The position numbers and the translations under genes were made by a program. A stretch of DNA of 43,356 bases from Deltaproteobacteria bacterium (lineage in GTDB: Bacteria > Myxococcota_A > Polyangia > JAAYKL01). A model generated the notes under the pieces. It did no database searches, had not been told where the DNA came from, and worked only from the letters and a program-made list of their open reading frames with translations. Below, piece by piece: positions 12,540 to 40,429 of the stretch; positions within the stretch are counted from its first letter, which is position 1, and each line of letters begins with the position of its first letter. Location of the stretch: assembly GCA_028713995.1 (NCBI GenBank), contig JAQTNF010000028.1:1-43356 (forward strand), in the 5' to 3' direction.

Positions 12540-13427
12540 TCACGGCCCGTCCGGATCCTTGCGCGAGATGACCTCGACCTTGCCGCCCTCGACCACGATG
12601 ACCTCGCGGCGATCCGGGAGAGCGCCGCCCGGCTCGGCCCAGCCCGAAGGACGCTGCGGGCCGCCATTCTGCGACGGCCAGGTCCAGACGAACGTGCGCA
12701 CTCCGGGGAAACCCGCCTGGGTCGGCCCTCCGGCCGAACCCTGCTTCTGCATCTCGCGCCACAGGGCCATGCGCTCCTCGCCCCCGGCGGCCAGGTAGAC
12801 GAACACCGCGATCGCCGCGAGCGACCAGGAGTCGAGCCACAGGAGCGCGGCGATGAAGCCCGCCACGGCGATGATGCGCCCCACTCGGGCCGCCATGCGG
12901 GTGGCCGTGAGAAAATCGCGCTTCAGGGCAAGGTAGCCGCGCAGCACGCGCCCGCCGTCCATGGGCAGGGCCGGCACCAGGTTGAAGACGCCCAGCATCA
13001 GGTTGATCCCCGCCAGGTAGACCACTCCCTCATCCACCGCTCGCGGCACGAACGGCGCGGCGGACACGGCGAGGCCCAGCACCAGACCCAAGCCCGCGAT
13101 GCCGAGGGACACGAGCGGTCCGGCCAACGCGATGGCGATCTCGTGGCGCGGCCGCGACGGCATGTCGATGACCCGCGCCATGCCGCCGATGGGCGTCAGC
13201 ACGATGTCGAGCGTGCGCACGCCGAAGCGCCGCGCCATGAGCGCGTGGCCGAGCTCGTGGAGCAGGACCGAGCCGAAGAGGAGCACCACGATGCCGGTCT
13301 CCACGGCAAACGCGAGCGGGCTCTCAAGGGAGCGCTTGGAGTAAAGCAGGAACGGGATGAGCAGCATCGTGATGTGCAGCCTCACAGGAATGCCAGACAC
13401 GGTTCCCAAGCGCCACGACAGGGCCAT
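12540..13427 (-). CDS. M50 site-2-protease-family membrane metalloprotease
   Basis: 295 residues. The start at 13427 is chosen for GAGGAGGAG immediately upstream. Residues 1-40 and later hydrophobic stretches form about four to six membrane spans. The zinc site is HELGH (57-61) plus Asp157 in NLVPALPMDGGR, the M50 signature pair. The arrangement lacks a PDZ domain and resembles the SpoIVFB/rhomboid-like short M50B group. It should cleave substrates within the inner membrane; site-2 proteases often release membrane-bound regulators. A C-terminal 60-residue soluble tail rich in Gly, Trp and Pro has no recognised domain. It follows the J-like gene on the same strand by 72 nt. Confidence 0.9.
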   Translation of the reverse strand: MALSWRLGTVSGIPVRLHITMLLIPFLLYSKRSLESPLAFAVETGIVVLLFGSVLLHELGHALMARRFGVRTLDIVLTPIGGMARVIDMPSRPRHEIAIALAGPLVSLGIAGLGLVLGLAVSAAPFVPRAVDEGVVYLAGINLMLGVFNLVPALPMDGGRVLRGYLALKRDFLTATRMAARVGRIIAVAGFIAALLWLDSWSLAAIAVFVYLAAGGEERMALWREMQKQGSAGGPTQAGFPGVRTFVWTWPSQNGGPQRPSGWAEPGGALPDRREVIVVEGGKVEVISRKDPDGP

Positions 13428-34357: not shown

Positions 34358-36349
34358 CTACTTGCTCTCCATGTCCCACGAGTAGTTGGGATCGAGGATG
34401 GCGCGCTTCAGGCGCTCGGCGCGGACGCGGAACTGACCGTCCGGATGCTCGCGCAGGTACTCGTCGATCATGCGCAGGGCGCCGCGCTTGTCGCCCACCT
34501 GGTAGCGCCCCAGGGCCACGCGGTAGCGCGCCTCCTCGGACCTGGGGTGCTGGGGCTTGGCCTTGATAAAGGCCAGGAGGTCGCGCTCGGCGTCCACCCA
34601 GCGGCGCTCCACGTCCTGGGCCAGGGCGCCGCGCCACAGCCGCGCGTCGGGCTCGTGGTGGCCGCCCGGGAAGGCGCGCAGGAACTCGTTGAAGCAGTGC
34701 AGCGCGTCGCGGTGCGCACCCGCGCGGCCGTCGAGCTCGCACAGGGAGTAGTAGGCCTCCTCCTTGAGGTCGCCGCCGAGCGGCGAAGCCACGTACGCCG
34801 TGAACGAGGCGCGCGCCCGAGAGAGATCGCCGAGCCGGTCCATGGCCAGCCGGCCCACCTCGTAGCGCGCGTTCTGGCCCGCGCTCGACGCCGGCGTGGC
34901 CGTTGCGATACGGTCGAACGTGTCCGCGGCCTCGGCGTAACGGCCGGTGGCGGCGTAGCATTCGGCGAGCAGCGACAACCCGGTGGTGAGCCTCGCGCCC
35001 TCGGCGTCCGGAACCGCGCGTTCGAGGAGCCCGATGGCGTAAGGGATGTCGCCTGCGGCCATGGCGAGCCGCGCGCGCTCGAAGAGATCGAACCTGCCGC
35101 CCGCCGAACCCTTGCGCGACGCAGCGCCGGGACCGTGCACGCGGCGCGAGCCGTCCGCGGCGTCTTCGGACCTGACCACCGCGGGCTCGTAGTCGCGCAC
35201 CGGTTCGAGCGCGAAGCTCGCCACCTCGAAATCGGAGCGGCCGTCGAGCGTGCCGTCGAGGGGCTCCATGCCCGGCGCGGTCAGGCGGTAGGCGAGCGGG
35301 CCCTCGGGCAGCCGCACCGTGAGCGGCGTGGTGCCGAGCACCCGGCCCTCCACTTCGACCTTGACCTGCTCGGGCGTGCCGTCGAAGCGCACGAGCCGCG
35401 TGCCGTCGAGGCCCGCCTCGGTCAGCGGATCGAGCTCGGCGGTGAGGGCCCGAACATCGTCTGTGAGCGCCTCGGCCGGGCCGTCGCCGGGCAGTCTCAC
35501 CATCTCGCCCGCGCCCACCTCCACCGTGCGCACCGGCCCCGCCGCGGACACGACCTCGACCCGTCCACCCTCCACGCCCACGCGCGTGCCTCCGCCGGGG
35601 ATCACCTCGACCGTGAACACGGTGCCGACGACGCGCACCACCGCGTCAGGCGTCGCCACCTCCAGGTTGCGCCCGCGGCCGCCCTCGAACGAAACGGCCA
35701 GCCGGCCTCGCTCGAGCGAGACACCGACGAAGCTCCCGTCGGCCCTCGTCAGGCGCCATACGGCCTCGCCGAACAGGGCCATGCGCGCGCCGTCGCCGAG
35801 ATGGAACGCGAACCTGCCACCCTTGTCGACCTCCACGATCCGGCCCTCGACCGCGGAAAAGCGCGCCTCGCGGCCCGCCGGCGCGCGGTTCACGCGCACC
35901 GCGCCCTCGCAGCGATCGACCGTGCCCTCGATGGCGGCCGGTCTGGCACCGTCTTTGCTCGAGGCGCCGGCCGCTGCCTGACGCTCGTGATACGCATCCG
36001 GCGCGATGCGCAAGGCCCCGAGGGTCACGATCACGGCCGCGGCGGACAGCCCGACCGCCCACGCCAGGGCCGGCCGCGCCCAAAGCGGCCTGTGCGGCGC
36101 GCCGAGCTGGTCCGCCACCTCGTGGATGGCCGGGACCAGCCGGTCGTAGATCCGCTGCTGTCGGTCCTCGTCGAGCTCCGCGATCTCGCCGGGGCCGGCT
36201 TCGATGATCGCCAGGCTCTCGGCCAGGGCGCGGCACGACTCGCAGCGCCGCAGGTGCACGTCGATGAGGCCTTGCTCTACGGCCGAGAGCCGCTCCGGGC
36301 GCGTCAGGGCGTCCTCGATCCGGCGGCAGTCGGGGTGCATCCCGGTCAT
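34358..36349 (-). CDS. Anti-sigma-like zinc-finger / FecR / TPR transmembrane protein
   Basis: 663 residues. A cytosolic putative zinc-finger anti-sigma domain is at the N-terminus (HLRRCESC: His32, Cys36, Cys39). One membrane span follows (about 92-113). The periplasmic part contains a FecR-like beta domain (GRIVEVDKGGRFAFHLGDGAR, then VVRVVGTVFTVEVIPGGGTRVGVEGG), a PEGA-like strand region (VEVEGRVLGTTPLTVRLPEG), a low-complexity linker, and about five TPR-like helical repeats at the C-terminus. The ATG overlaps the ECF sigma stop codon (ATGA), so it is the cognate regulator. The layout implies an envelope signal passed through FecR/TPR to the sigma factor. Confidence 0.88.
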   Translation of the reverse strand: MTGMHPDCRRIEDALTRPERLSAVEQGLIDVHLRRCESCRALAESLAIIEAGPGEIAELDEDRQQRIYDRLVPAIHEVADQLGAPHRPLWARPALAWAVGLSAAAVIVTLGALRIAPDAYHERQAAAGASSKDGARPAAIEGTVDRCEGAVRVNRAPAGREARFSAVEGRIVEVDKGGRFAFHLGDGARMALFGEAVWRLTRADGSFVGVSLERGRLAVSFEGGRGRNLEVATPDAVVRVVGTVFTVEVIPGGGTRVGVEGGRVEVVSAAGPVRTVEVGAGEMVRLPGDGPAEALTDDVRALTAELDPLTEAGLDGTRLVRFDGTPEQVKVEVEGRVLGTTPLTVRLPEGPLAYRLTAPGMEPLDGTLDGRSDFEVASFALEPVRDYEPAVVRSEDAADGSRRVHGPGAASRKGSAGGRFDLFERARLAMAAGDIPYAIGLLERAVPDAEGARLTTGLSLLAECYAATGRYAEAADTFDRIATATPASSAGQNARYEVGRLAMDRLGDLSRARASFTAYVASPLGGDLKEEAYYSLCELDGRAGAHRDALHCFNEFLRAFPGGHHEPDARLWRGALAQDVERRWVDAERDLLAFIKAKPQHPRSEEARYRVALGRYQVGDKRGALRMIDEYLREHPDGQFRVRAERLKRAILDPNYSWDMESK

Positions 36350-37008
36350 GATCCCTTCCTTTTCAAGACCTCGACGATCTCCTTGCGCGCGGCCTGCAGG
36401 CGCGAGCCGATGGTGGAGACGGACGAGCCGAGCAGCTCCGCGATCTCCTCGAGCGAGTAGCCTTCATACATGTAGAGCACGTAAGTTTCGCGCTTCTTCG
36501 GGGCGATCTGGTCGAGCACCGCGTAGATGCCCTCGCGCGTGGCGAGACAGCGCTCGGGCGTCTGCTCGCAGCTCGTGAGCGACATCTTGTTCGCATCGCC
36601 CATGGCCGTGCCGAGCCTCCTGCGCCTCGTCCTCACCCGGATCTCCTGCCGCGCCACGTTGATCGTGATGCGGAAGAGCCACGTGGAGAACGCGGACTGG
36701 CCGCGGAACCTTCTGATGGACTGGAAGATGTTGAGGAAGACGAGCTGCGTGAGGTCGTCGATGTCGGGTCCGGGCCCCACGAGCAGGGAGAGGTGGCGGT
36801 ATACGCCGCCGACGTGCCTCTCGACGAGCAGGCGAAACGCCGGCCTGTCGCCCTCCTGGCAGCGCGCCACCAGCTGGCTGACCGATTCGGCCTTGGTCCT
36901 CTTCCCGGCAGCCAAACCCAATCTCTCGAGCACACCGACCTGCACAGTCTTCCCCTTCGCCGCTTTCCTTCCCGCGGTGTTGTTGCCCGATTGATTAGTC
37001 GACTTCAT
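36346..37008 (-). CDS. ECF RNA polymerase sigma factor
   Basis: 220 residues from the ATG at 37008, which gives a Ser/Lys/Gly-rich tail of about 45 residues before region 2. Region 2 is DIDDLTQLVFLNIFQSI and FRGQSAFSTWLFRITINVARQ, which contacts the core enzyme and the -10 element. Region 4 helix-turn-helix is GYSLEEIAELLGSSVSTIGSRLQ, for the -35 element. There is no region 3, as expected for ECF types. The stop overlaps the anti-sigma-like gene by 4 nt. It follows the 37046 exported protein on the same strand with a 37-nt gap; no strong ribosome binding site precedes it. Confidence 0.92.
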   Translation of the reverse strand: MKSTNQSGNNTAGRKAAKGKTVQVGVLERLGLAAGKRTKAESVSQLVARCQEGDRPAFRLLVERHVGGVYRHLSLLVGPGPDIDDLTQLVFLNIFQSIRRFRGQSAFSTWLFRITINVARQEIRVRTRRRRLGTAMGDANKMSLTSCEQTPERCLATREGIYAVLDQIAPKKRETYVLYMYEGYSLEEIAELLGSSVSTIGSRLQAARKEIVEVLKRKGS

Positions 37009-37045
37009 GGCCAAACATTTATGAGATCGGCACGTTTTTCGAACC

Positions 37046-38122
37046 CTAATTAAAGTAATACTGTATCCCGATATCCGCAAACGGCAAAACGCGGTCTTGC
37101 CTGTACACGGTCTTGCCCCGGTTTCGCAGCACATCCCGGTCGAGCACGACGGCCACGCCGCCGTCCACGGCAACGGCCCACGGACCGTACACATGGAGGA
37201 CCGCGACGGCCTTTCCGATCACCTGGGGGTTGAAGAGCACGTCCGTGCGATCCTGGCCGAAACCCGAGGTCCTGTAGATGGAGAAGCCCACGGACGCGCC
37301 GGCCGTCACCGCCAGATCGACCCACTTGCTCGCGAGGGCCAGGACCCCGATCGTGACGCCCAACGGGAGGTAGCTGACGGAGCCGTCGATCCCGTCCCTA
37401 TCAAAGGTTCCCCACCCGGCCCACGACGCGTTCACGGCCGCGATGACGCGGGAGTGCAGCGTGCCCTCGAGCTCAAGCCGCGGACCGAGCACGAACTCCT
37501 CGGTGGACAGGAGGCGGAAGACGGCCAGGGACAGGCCCACACAGCGCAGGACCGGGTAGGAGCTGCGATCCTTCTCCTTCTCCTTCTTCACTCCGCCAAC
37601 GACCGACGGCTCGATGATCGAGAGCCCGGCGCCGAGCGTCGCGCCCGGGTCGGCCGGCTCCAGGTAGGGCAGGATCGCCTCCTCGATCATGAGCGCCATG
37701 GTCCACGCCGTTCCGGCCGGATCCCGCTCGCGGCGCACCTCGCGCACCAGGTCGTCGTTCTCGCGGCCCACGGTGTTGTCCACGGCCACGAGAGCCAGCT
37801 CCGGGGACAGGACGCGCAGGTGAACGATCCACAGGAGGCGGTCCGCGGCCTGCGCCTCCTTGCCCGCGGCGTCCGGCGGCCGGATCTCGCCGGGCGCGCT
37901 CTTCATCACGAAGAGCCCGTACCGCGCCAACCTGAGGCCGAGCGTGTCGACGACGCGCTCGGCCTCGTCTCCGAGGGCCGGCTCGCTCTCGACGATGAGG
38001 CAGCGTTTCCCGCCGCAGCCCGCGGCGCCGGGGTCCTGCTCCTGCGCACCGGCCGCAGCCGGAACCGTCAGGACCGCGGCGAGGGCCACCCAAGGGGCGC
38101 GGCGCATGGTGAGGGCATGCAT
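37046..38122 (-). CDS. Exported outer-membrane-like protein upstream of the sigma factor
   Basis: 358 residues. The N-terminal signal peptide (MRRAPWVALAAVLTVPAAAGAQE) supports either ATG 38122 or ATG 38107; the longer is given. The first half (about 30-150, CLIVESEPALGDEAERVVDTL) has alpha/beta pattern with no recognised family. The second half has amphipathic strands (WAGWGTFDRDGIDGSVSYLPLGVTIGVLAL) and ends FADIGIQYYFN, typical of barrel C-termini. It shares strand and short spacing with the ECF sigma/FecR pair and may be a sensor or target in that pathway. The promoter region is not clear. Confidence 0.7.
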   Translation of the reverse strand: MHALTMRRAPWVALAAVLTVPAAAGAQEQDPGAAGCGGKRCLIVESEPALGDEAERVVDTLGLRLARYGLFVMKSAPGEIRPPDAAGKEAQAADRLLWIVHLRVLSPELALVAVDNTVGRENDDLVREVRRERDPAGTAWTMALMIEEAILPYLEPADPGATLGAGLSIIEPSVVGGVKKEKEKDRSSYPVLRCVGLSLAVFRLLSTEEFVLGPRLELEGTLHSRVIAAVNASWAGWGTFDRDGIDGSVSYLPLGVTIGVLALASKWVDLAVTAGASVGFSIYRTSGFGQDRTDVLFNPQVIGKAVAVLHVYGPWAVAVDGGVAVVLDRDVLRNRGKTVYRQDRVLPFADIGIQYYFN

Positions 38123-38170: not shown

Positions 38171-38974
38171 ATGGAAAACGACAACGCTCACACGCAAGAA
38201 GCCGCGCGACCCGCCGCGCTCGTCACGGGCGGTGCGGTGCGCGTGGGTGCCGCCATCGCGAGCCTCCTCGTCGAGAGCGGTTACGACGTGGCGATCCACT
38301 GCAACACGTCCACTGCGGCGGCAGAGGGGCTCGCTGCGTCGCTCGCGGCGCACGGCGCTCGCACACCGGTGCTGCAGGCGGATCTGACGCGGCCCGGCGC
38401 GCCTTTTTCCCTCGTGACGCGGGCAGTCGAGGCGTTCGGACGCCTCGACGTCGTGGTCAACAGCGCGGCGGTGTTCGTGGCCGACGACGCGGCCATGATC
38501 GATCTCGCCCGCATGAAGGTGCTCAACGTGGACGCGCCGCGCGCCGTCCTCGACGCGGCTGCGCCCCACGTCGCGCCGTGGGCGGGGTGCGTGGTCAACA
38601 TCTCGGACGTGGCCGCCCTGTTCCCTTTCCGGGGTTACAAGTCGTACGCCCGCACCAAGGCGGCCCTGCTCTCGCTCTCGCAGGAACGGGCCCTCGCGCT
38701 CGCCCCGCACAACGTGCGCGTGAACGCCGTGTGCCCGGGCGTGGCCGTATTCGCCGACAGGTACACGAACAAGGAGCGCGCGCGCATCGTCTCGCGGATC
38801 CCGCTCGGCCGCGCGGGCTCGCCCCTCGACGTGGCGGGCGCCGTGCTCTACCTGGCGCGGGCGCCATACGTGACCGGCCAGATCCTCGTGGTGGACGGCG
38901 GGCGGACCCTGCGCTCCATGCAGGAGGCGGGCACGCGCGCCGCCACTGGGCGCTCGCGCTTCGACGTGAACTGA
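38171..38974 (+). CDS. SDR, pteridine-reductase (PTR1/FolM) type
   Basis: 267 residues. The NADPH-binding segment is TGGAVRVG (19-26), with the basic residue typical of pteridine reductases. The NSAA site is at 97-100. The catalytic Tyr159-xxx-Lys163 pair (YARTK) is present, and 13 residues before Tyr is Asp146 (NISD) in place of the usual Ser, as in PTR1 and FolM. It may reduce dihydropterins or folate. The 20-residue Asp/Glu/Asn-rich N-terminus has no assigned role. It starts from a nearby promoter with almost no leader. It is followed by Mpl after 27 nt. Confidence 0.82.
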   Translation: MENDNAHTQEAARPAALVTGGAVRVGAAIASLLVESGYDVAIHCNTSTAAAEGLAASLAAHGARTPVLQADLTRPGAPFSLVTRAVEAFGRLDVVVNSAAVFVADDAAMIDLARMKVLNVDAPRAVLDAAAPHVAPWAGCVVNISDVAALFPFRGYKSYARTKAALLSLSQERALALAPHNVRVNAVCPGVAVFADRYTNKERARIVSRIPLGRAGSPLDVAGAVLYLARAPYVTGQILVVDGGRTLRSMQEAGTRAATGRSRFDVN

Positions 38975-39001: not shown

Positions 39002-40429
39002 ATGGAACATCCGCCCGCGTCCCGCATCGCCATCTCGCCGCCCGCGGTCGTGCACCTCGTGGGCGTGTGCGGCACGGCCATGGGCGCCTTGGCCGGGCTG
39101 CTCAAGGCGAGCGGTTTTCAGGTCACGGGCTCGGACGCGCACGCCTACCCCCCCATGAGCCTCGAGCTCGCGCGCATGGGCATCGCGGTCAAGGAGGGGT
39201 TCAAAGCCTCGAACCTGGATCACGGTCCCGACCTCGTGGTCGTGGGCAACGCGTGCCGCAGGGAGCATCCCGAAGCCGCGGCCGCCCGCGAGCGCGGCCT
39301 CGCGTACGCCTCGCTGCCGGCCACGATCCATGATCTGTTCCTTGCGGGACGCAGATCCCTCGTGGTGGCGGGCACCCACGGCAAGACCACGACCACCGCG
39401 CTCCTCGCCTATCTGCTCTTCGCCGCGGGCCGCGATCCTTCTGTGCTCGTGGGCGGCGTGGCCACGGACTTCGGCTCCGGGCATCGGCTCGGCTCGGGCC
39501 CGGACTTCGTCATCGAGGGTGACGAGTACGACAGCGCCTACTTCGAGAAGCGGCCCAAGTTCCTCTCGTACGCGCCCTCGGCCGCGGCCCTCACGTCGGT
39601 CGAGCACGACCACGTGGACATCTACCCCACCGAAGAGGCCTATCGCGCAGCGTTCGCGGGCCTCGTGGGGCTCGTCGATCCCGGGCCGCTCGCGGTGCAC
39701 GCCGGCGACGCCGCGGCCGTGGCGCTCTCAGCGACGGCCCGGGCGGAGGTGATCGCTTACGGCGTCACGGGCGACGTTCACGTTGCGCCGCCGCGGTGGA
39801 TCGCCGCGCCCGCGGGCAGGGGACGGTTCGAGCTACGCGTCGACGGGAGGGCCGCGGGAATCTTCTCGACCGCGCTCGGCGGGCGGCACAACCTGCGAAA
39901 CACGCTCGCCGCGCTCATCCTCGCGCATTGCGCCGCGGGCGTTTCGCTCGACGAGCTCGCGCGCGCGCTGCCCGGGTTCAAGGGCGTGCGGCGGCGGCAG
40001 GAGGTGATCGGCCGTCCGCGCGGCATCGCGGTGTACGACGACTTCGCCCACCACCCGACCGCGGTGCGCGTGACGCTCGAGGCCCTGGCCGAACTGCACG
40101 AGCCCGGGCGCCTGGCCGTGGCGTTCGAGCCGCGCTCGGCCACCGCGTGCCGCCGCATGCACCAAGCTGCGTACACCGGGGCGTTCGACCGGGCCGGCCT
40201 CGCGATCATCGCGCCGGTCGGTCGGGATCTCCCCGAGGCGGAGCGGCTCGACACGGCCCTGCTCGCCGCGGACCTGCGCGCGCGCGGCGTGGCCGCCACG
40301 GCCGCGGGCTCCATCGACGAGGTGCTCGAAGCGCTCGTGGCGTGGGCGCGGCCCGGCGACGGCGTCGCCCTGCTCTCGAACGGCGGGTTCGGCGGGCTTC
40401 ACGGACGCCTGCTCGAGGCGCTCGCATGA
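39002..40429 (+). CDS. mpl: UDP-N-acetylmuramate:L-alanyl-gamma-D-glutamyl-meso-DAP ligase (Mpl)
   Basis: 475 residues, usual for Mpl. It links recycled murein tripeptide to UDP-MurNAc with ATP in peptidoglycan recycling. The ATP loop GTHGKTTTT is at 124-132. VVVGNACRREHPEA and SLPATIHDLFL are of the Mpl/MurC N-terminal pattern, and VIEGDEYDSAYFEKRPKF and the YDDFAHHPTAV motif follow. The C-terminal domain has the FEPRSATACRRMHQ segment typical of Mpl rather than MurC. The ATG has GAGGAGG upstream. It overlaps the next gene (ATGA). Confidence 0.92.
   Translation: MEHPPASRIAISPPAVVHLVGVCGTAMGALAGLLKASGFQVTGSDAHAYPPMSLELARMGIAVKEGFKASNLDHGPDLVVVGNACRREHPEAAAARERGLAYASLPATIHDLFLAGRRSLVVAGTHGKTTTTALLAYLLFAAGRDPSVLVGGVATDFGSGHRLGSGPDFVIEGDEYDSAYFEKRPKFLSYAPSAAALTSVEHDHVDIYPTEEAYRAAFAGLVGLVDPGPLAVHAGDAAAVALSATARAEVIAYGVTGDVHVAPPRWIAAPAGRGRFELRVDGRAAGIFSTALGGRHNLRNTLAALILAHCAAGVSLDELARALPGFKGVRRRQEVIGRPRGIAVYDDFAHHPTAVRVTLEALAELHEPGRLAVAFEPRSATACRRMHQAAYTGAFDRAGLAIIAPVGRDLPEAERLDTALLAADLRARGVAATAAGSIDEVLEALVAWARPGDGVALLSNGGFGGLHGRLLEALA

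Follow-up and report, generated by a model that had tools for sequence, protein, structure and literature searches.

The subject of this work is a group of three adjacent genes located between positions 34358 and 38122 of a 43,356-nucleotide stretch of DNA (the whole stretch is called the window below), which is contig JAQTNF010000028.1 (positions 1 to 43,356, forward strand) of assembly GCA_028713995.1, from a Deltaproteobacteria bacterium (GTDB lineage Myxococcota_A, Polyangia, JAAYKL01). All three genes are carried by the minus strand and were found at the positions where an earlier note, made from the letters alone, had described a sigma factor with an overlapping regulator and an exported neighbour. 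The first gene (37046..38122) encodes a protein of 358 amino acids (aa) with a signal peptide, an N-terminal domain, a linker and a predicted barrel, presumably exported to the outer membrane. It is followed by the gene of an extracytoplasmic function (ECF) sigma factor of 220 aa (36346..37008) and by that of a membrane anti-sigma factor of 663 aa (34358..36349), called the regulator hereafter. The stop codon of the sigma factor and the start codon of the regulator overlap in the four nucleotides ATGA (36346..36349). The three adjacent genes are a conserved unit, co-inherited across a large group of Myxococcota.

The sigma factor matched Sigma70_r2 (54.6 bits) and Sigma70_r4_2 (47.6 bits) in Pfam, and TIGR02937 with 84.7 bits for a cut-off of 42.9. 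The presence of Sigma70 regions 2 and 4 only is that of an ECF factor. The start was set at the ATG at position 37008 because a longer open reading frame (ORF) would extend into the exported gene. An N-terminal extension of approximately 40 residues (window 36880-37008) displays a motif resembling VGVLEKIG which recurs in the orthologues. Autoregulation of the trio was considered and set aside, as inspection by eye of the sequence preceding the exported gene, in the window and at 12 orthologue loci, revealed no evident shared ECF-type promoter.

The earlier note had read the regulator as a succession of zinc-finger, FecR, PEGA and TPR parts, and this composition was recovered with unequal scores. 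FecR (PF04773, 33.4 bits for a cut-off of 24) and TPR_16 (35.3 bits for a cut-off of 32.7) were above the Pfam thresholds, and PEGA (PF08308, 18.4 bits for a cut-off of 20.8) and zf-HC2 (11.2 bits for a cut-off of 22.2) were below. The cytosolic anti-sigma domain (residues 1–60, 36170..36349) contains the zinc-finger signature C8...H32xxxC36xxC39, invariant in the eight aligned orthologues; HxxxCxxC was present in 13 of the 14 listed orthologue loci, the exception (L077) being a contig-split fragment devoid of the N-terminus. In the AlphaFold model (predicted local distance difference test, pLDDT, 74), a helical N-terminus precedes a transmembrane helix at residues 92–114 (36008..36076), where the orthologues also show a hydrophobic peak, followed by beta structure at 140–286 and 317–380 and by about 13 helices at 420–652. 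Residues 167–305 (35435..35851) are predicted to form the FecR beta-solenoid: this part of the model aligned with the beta-solenoid of PupR (6ovk_R) with a Z score of 17.5 and a root-mean-square deviation (rmsd) of 2.6 over 136 aligned positions. The match stopped at PupR residue 250, at the beginning of the STN subdomain. The place occupied by the STN subdomain in PupR and FoxR is taken here by the PEGA-like beta domain (residues 317–380, 35210..35401), supported by the sub-threshold Pfam score and the strands of the model. The periplasmic TPR array (residues 420–652, 34394..35092) also matched a YbgF-type profile with 62.1 bits, and its modelled residues 530–654 superimposed on the YbgF TPR (2xev_B) with a Z score of 18.6 and an rmsd of 1.9. 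No FecR_C or STN family was matched in Pfam at E values up to 1, a diverged STN fold not having been searched for separately. With a FecR domain located after a single transmembrane helix and a gene paired with that of an ECF factor, the regulator is a FecR-type anti-sigma factor, whose solenoid and TPR folds are modelled. The periplasmic model of FoxR is nearly identical to PupR (PMC11637429); an STN-like domain comes after its solenoid, and contact with the receptor has been predicted for this domain.

The exported protein matched no Pfam or NCBIfam family. Its AlphaFold model, built on eight sequences (mean pLDDT 73, predicted template modelling score, pTM, 0.46), suggests two domains: an alpha/beta domain at residues 38–153 and an eight-stranded barrel at residues 191–356, separated by a low-confidence linker (157–185). 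The description of this neighbour as barrel-like thus holds in the model; the periplasmic domain, as well as the many paralogous trios described below, go beyond what the earlier note had seen. The predicted barrel part (residues 186–358, 37049..37567) has an OmpA/OmpW/NspA-like fold (Z scores of 17–19, rmsd 2.6–2.8), the OmpA model 9a2m scoring 18.7 and OmpW (2f1v_A) 17.9. The putative periplasmic domain (residues 36–156, 37655..38017) resembled the N-terminal domain of TolB (7mx5_A) with a Z score of 10.6 and an rmsd of 2.9 over 102 aligned positions in VIA-align; STN was not among the matches listed, which leaves an STN fold possible. The likeness to TolB is one of fold only, since no sequence-profile link was found. 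The possibility that the protein is TolB itself was rejected: it showed no PF04052 match, alignment of its N-terminal domain to the TolB proteins of the genomes by hhalign gave E values of 0.65–0.86, and the C-terminal half is a barrel and not a propeller in the model.

The trio was first compared among the 14 genomes of the family. All 13 other genomes contained a full-length orthologue of the regulator, that of G009 being distributed over two contigs; the 45 further genomes searched outside the family had none, the best partial match there having an E value of 1e-20. The profile of the exported protein found exactly one copy in each of the 14 genomes and no orthologue in the 130 other genomes of the class. 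The exported, sigma and regulator genes were contiguous in 12 of the 13 other family genomes, including G009, in which the regulator is cut by the contig end. In the remaining genome, G008, the position directly upstream of the sigma factor, which the exported gene has left, is occupied by a gene for a 536-aa protein (L046 4046-5656), presumably M23-like by its motifs.

The window trio is one of many. FecR matches numbered 12 in its own genome and 4–33 per genome across the family (242 in total). Besides the window, 51 FecR loci were surveyed, distributed as 11 in the same genome, 20 in G004, 11 in G010 and nine in G003. An ECF sigma gene was adjacent in 46; the five loci where none was found nearby (L084, L092, L109, L126 and L147) were left out of the subsequent count. 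One of these, L092, holds a FecR ORF of approximately 1360 aa. Exported candidates were sought as closely adjacent same-strand genes for proteins of 250–520 aa with a hydrophobic N-terminus. In 35 of the 46 ECF/FecR loci, such a gene encoded a member of a single phmmer-linked cluster (E ≤ 1e-3), which broke into groups of 23, 9, 2 and 1 at an E value of 1e-4. Two gene orders were observed: the exported gene lies upstream of the sigma gene in 23 trios, as in the window (upstream type), and downstream of the regulator in 12 (downstream type).

The proteins encoded in these two positions match each other (hhalign E 9e-6), and the exported family of the window matches the cluster over its whole length (E 7e-13). 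The barrel alone matched with an E value of 6e-9, against 0.4–0.7 for unrelated controls, and the N-terminal domain alone matched that of the upstream type (E 9e-5, probability 59). The hidden Markov model of the upstream type directly recovered the window orthologues in three of the seven loci having the exported gene, down to an E value of 4e-8. A sequence search of the PDB with the upstream-type profile returned nothing relevant, and Pfam scans of the 23 and 12 relatives gave scattered weak matches, the sole relevant one being OMP_b-brl in one of the 23 (E 0.1). The regulators of the two types differ: HxxxCxxC was present in 17 of the 23 upstream-type regulators and in none of the 12 of the downstream type.

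Across the 35 trios, the three proteins have diversified together. Pairwise distances correlated between exported protein and regulator (r = 0.83; within genomes 0.857), exported protein and sigma factor (0.82; 0.825), and regulator and sigma factor (0.87; 0.882), with 0 of 2000 shuffles in each case for the within-genome values. Since co-inheritance in an operon could alone yield such a pattern, these values identify the trio as a unit and not a contact between its products. A predicted lipoprotein gene was the next same-strand gene in 16 of 42 systems, compared to eight of 120 background ORFs under the same rough rule. These lipoproteins (for example L086 6928-8139, L130, L129 and L138) often carry linkers rich in Asp, Ser and Thr, and it is possible that their genes are outputs of the systems. 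The window trio has no downstream lipoprotein gene.

The earlier note had proposed a neighbourhood survey of the trio; besides the conserved arrangement in the family, divergent trios were found to recur across the class. The upstream-type exported profile matched in 98 of the 144 class genomes and the downstream-type profile in 71, some of the matches being partial and limited to the barrel. In a sample of the phylum, 39 of 282 genomes were matched, 31 of them, own genome counted, belonging to the same class. Twenty upstream-type loci outside the family were inspected, one per genome, from 15 genera and nine families; they were taken from the higher-ranking listed matches with good coverage, and not according to their neighbourhood. 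All 20 were located directly before a sigma and regulator pair. For the downstream type, nine of 12 matches outside the family followed such a pair; at L214 the regulator is adjacent and the contig ends before a sigma gene. A Polyangiaceae locus (L048) carries a downstream-type exported protein. The sigma factor also retrieved 21 more distant loci (L047 and L049–L068), and no exported relative was present in any of them. One upstream-type gene (L163, G069:C198:4021-5103) contains three internal stops and is apparently a decayed copy.

The usual explanation of FecR-type switches involves a TonB-dependent receptor; for the FecR-like anti-sigma factors of some bacteria, no suitable receptor is known. 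The trio shares with FecI-FecR-FecA, and with FoxIRA and PupIRB, an ECF sigma factor, a single-pass FecR-type anti-sigma factor with the same beta-solenoid, linkage of the genes and, as modelled here, a barrel protein of the outer membrane whose N-terminal domain is periplasmic. It differs by a barrel predicted to be eight-stranded, plugless and OmpA/OmpW-like, whereas a FecA-like transducer combines a plug with a 22-stranded barrel; by a TolB-N-like fold in place of the STN of FecA; by PEGA and TPR where PupR and FoxR have STN after the solenoid; and by the zinc-finger cytosolic domain of many of the regulators. This HxxxCxxC signature is also that of RseA/ChrR-type zinc-finger anti-sigma factors, from which the present regulators are distinguished by the very large FecR/PEGA/TPR periplasmic part and by the absence of the motif in the downstream type.

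The closest precedent for the unusual partner is VreA of the PUMA3 system of Pseudomonas aeruginosa (VreA-VreI-VreR), a trio in which a non-classical partner also replaces the TonB-dependent receptor. The C-terminal domain of VreA resembles TolA, a further Tol-like fold, but VreA keeps an STN domain and has no barrel (PMC2729926), while a barrel is predicted here and STN was not detected. In Leptospira, the ECF/FecR-like pair LIC_12757/LIC_12756 similarly includes a FecR-like regulator for which a suitable TonB-dependent receptor is not known; according to its authors, no putative receptor of this kind has the needed N-terminal extension, and the accessible part of their report describes no exported barrel partner (PMC12155086). 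The trio itself was not found described in the literature searched, which did not include the main ECF re-classification (NAR 2021), where this gene context may be mentioned.

We propose that the trio is a FecIRA-like cell-surface signalling system working without TonB, in which the small barrel replaces the TonB-dependent receptor and the PEGA and TPR parts replace STN, and we give this reading a probability of roughly 0.6. In this model, the exported protein would sit in the outer membrane as an eight-stranded barrel with its alpha/beta domain hanging into the periplasm, where this domain would contact the anti-sigma factor of the inner membrane on its FecR-solenoid/PEGA/TPR part, probably through the TPR/PEGA region standing where the STN of PupR and FoxR meets the receptor. 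In the resting state, the sigma factor would be retained by the cytosolic zinc-finger helices. The contact would change in response to a surface ligand or to an altered envelope state felt by the barrel and the periplasmic domain; the anti-sigma factor would then be cut or reshaped, and the freed sigma factor would switch on its regulon. Site-2 protease candidates are present in the genome, and the window contains a gene of the Peptidase_M50 (site-2 protease) family (12864-13289, minus strand), to which no link with the trio was shown. The chances appear about even that the model extends to a class-wide, multi-copy, TonB-independent signalling family of Myxococcota, in which undescribed small barrels with a TolB-N-like domain would serve FecR-PEGA-TPR anti-sigma factors as dedicated transducers, with the TPR array reaching across the periplasm to meet the barrel protein.

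Several observations weigh against this proposal. In G008, the exported gene is outside the operon, as a single copy on another contig, and the sigma and regulator genes remain together. Eleven of the 46 ECF/FecR loci have no clustered exported relative; they include contig-edge cases and two candidates that did not cluster (L115D and L144U). Outside the family, one of the 12 downstream-type loci (L212) has neither sigma nor regulator nearby, and at L216 the contig ends just beside the exported gene, so that the neighbours cannot be judged. The N-terminal domain of the window protein did not match that of the downstream type (hhalign E 0.5), and its likeness to TolB stays at the level of the fold, the profile alignments described above being negative. 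No common ECF-type promoter upstream of the exported gene was evident in the window and the 12 orthologue loci, inspected by eye and with no formal motif search. Finally, any genes transmitted together in an operon would be expected to co-diversify, and the correlations are no proof of contact.

As the main alternative, the barrel protein could be an output of the system instead of its sensor: activity of the sigma factor would lead to its production as a structural component of the outer membrane, and the regulator would sense alone via its TPR/PEGA/FecR parts, detecting for instance peptidoglycan, lipoproteins or proteins that are misfolded. The position in the operon is as compatible with a target as with a partner, an output-like lipoprotein gene directly follows 16 of the 42 systems, and the large periplasmic part of the regulator could be sufficient for sensing. 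We nevertheless consider this explanation rather unlikely, as the exported protein has two predicted domains of which the periplasmic one is conserved, adjacency is retained in two different gene orders, and co-diversification with the regulator is almost as tight as that of the sigma factor; the downstream lipoproteins, on the other hand, are divided among many unrelated groups. The trio might also be an ordinary envelope-stress switch of the RseA/FecR type, with the exported gene next to it by chance or for historical reasons. Additional domains are common in ECF/anti-sigma pairs, and G008 has the pair without the adjacent gene; the recurrence of an exported relative in 35 of the 46 surveyed loci and at the 20 upstream-type loci of 20 other genomes, together with its absence from the 21 more distant loci, already disfavours this explanation and makes it very improbable.

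It is hardly more probable that the exported protein has an accessory role in a FecIRA system of the classical kind, acting with a TonB-dependent receptor encoded elsewhere. TonB plug domains are indeed encoded in all 14 family genomes (2–24 each). Among the FecR matches listed, however, a comparison by eye in these genomes found no plug gene within 10 kb, the nearest pair on a shared contig being approximately 12 kb apart (G005:C165), and the contig of the window has none. The regulator, in addition, lacks a FecR_C/STN match at E values up to 1, and its resemblance to PupR ends at the start of the STN subdomain (FoxR boundaries from PMC11637429). The retention of the trio and these distances support the suggestion of the earlier note of an envelope-sensing system devoid of a TonB-dependent receptor, in which sensing would be the role of the trio. 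A sensor related to Tol-Pal was also considered. The modelled TolB-N fold of the exported protein and the match of the TPRs to YbgF (CpoB) recall this system, but the exported model has no propeller and no sequence link to TolB, and the genome encodes a separate TolB; as its basis is a fold and a generic TPR similarity, we do not claim it.

If the TonB-independent signalling model is correct, these bacteria would possess a large number of sensors at their surface that are not related to iron transport, and the outputs would include surface lipoproteins. In Myxococcota, the missing partner of FecR-type switches in the outer membrane may be this exported family, a candidate that can be tested, and the numerous copies per genome offer natural partner pairs for tests of specificity.

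On the other side of the trio, a short-chain dehydrogenase gene (38171-38974, plus strand) is divergently oriented, only 48 bp from the exported gene, and lies beside the trio in 11 of the 13 relatives. It is followed by a Mur ligase gene (39002-40429, plus strand), which we take to be Mpl-like and which was found near the trio in seven of the 13 relatives.

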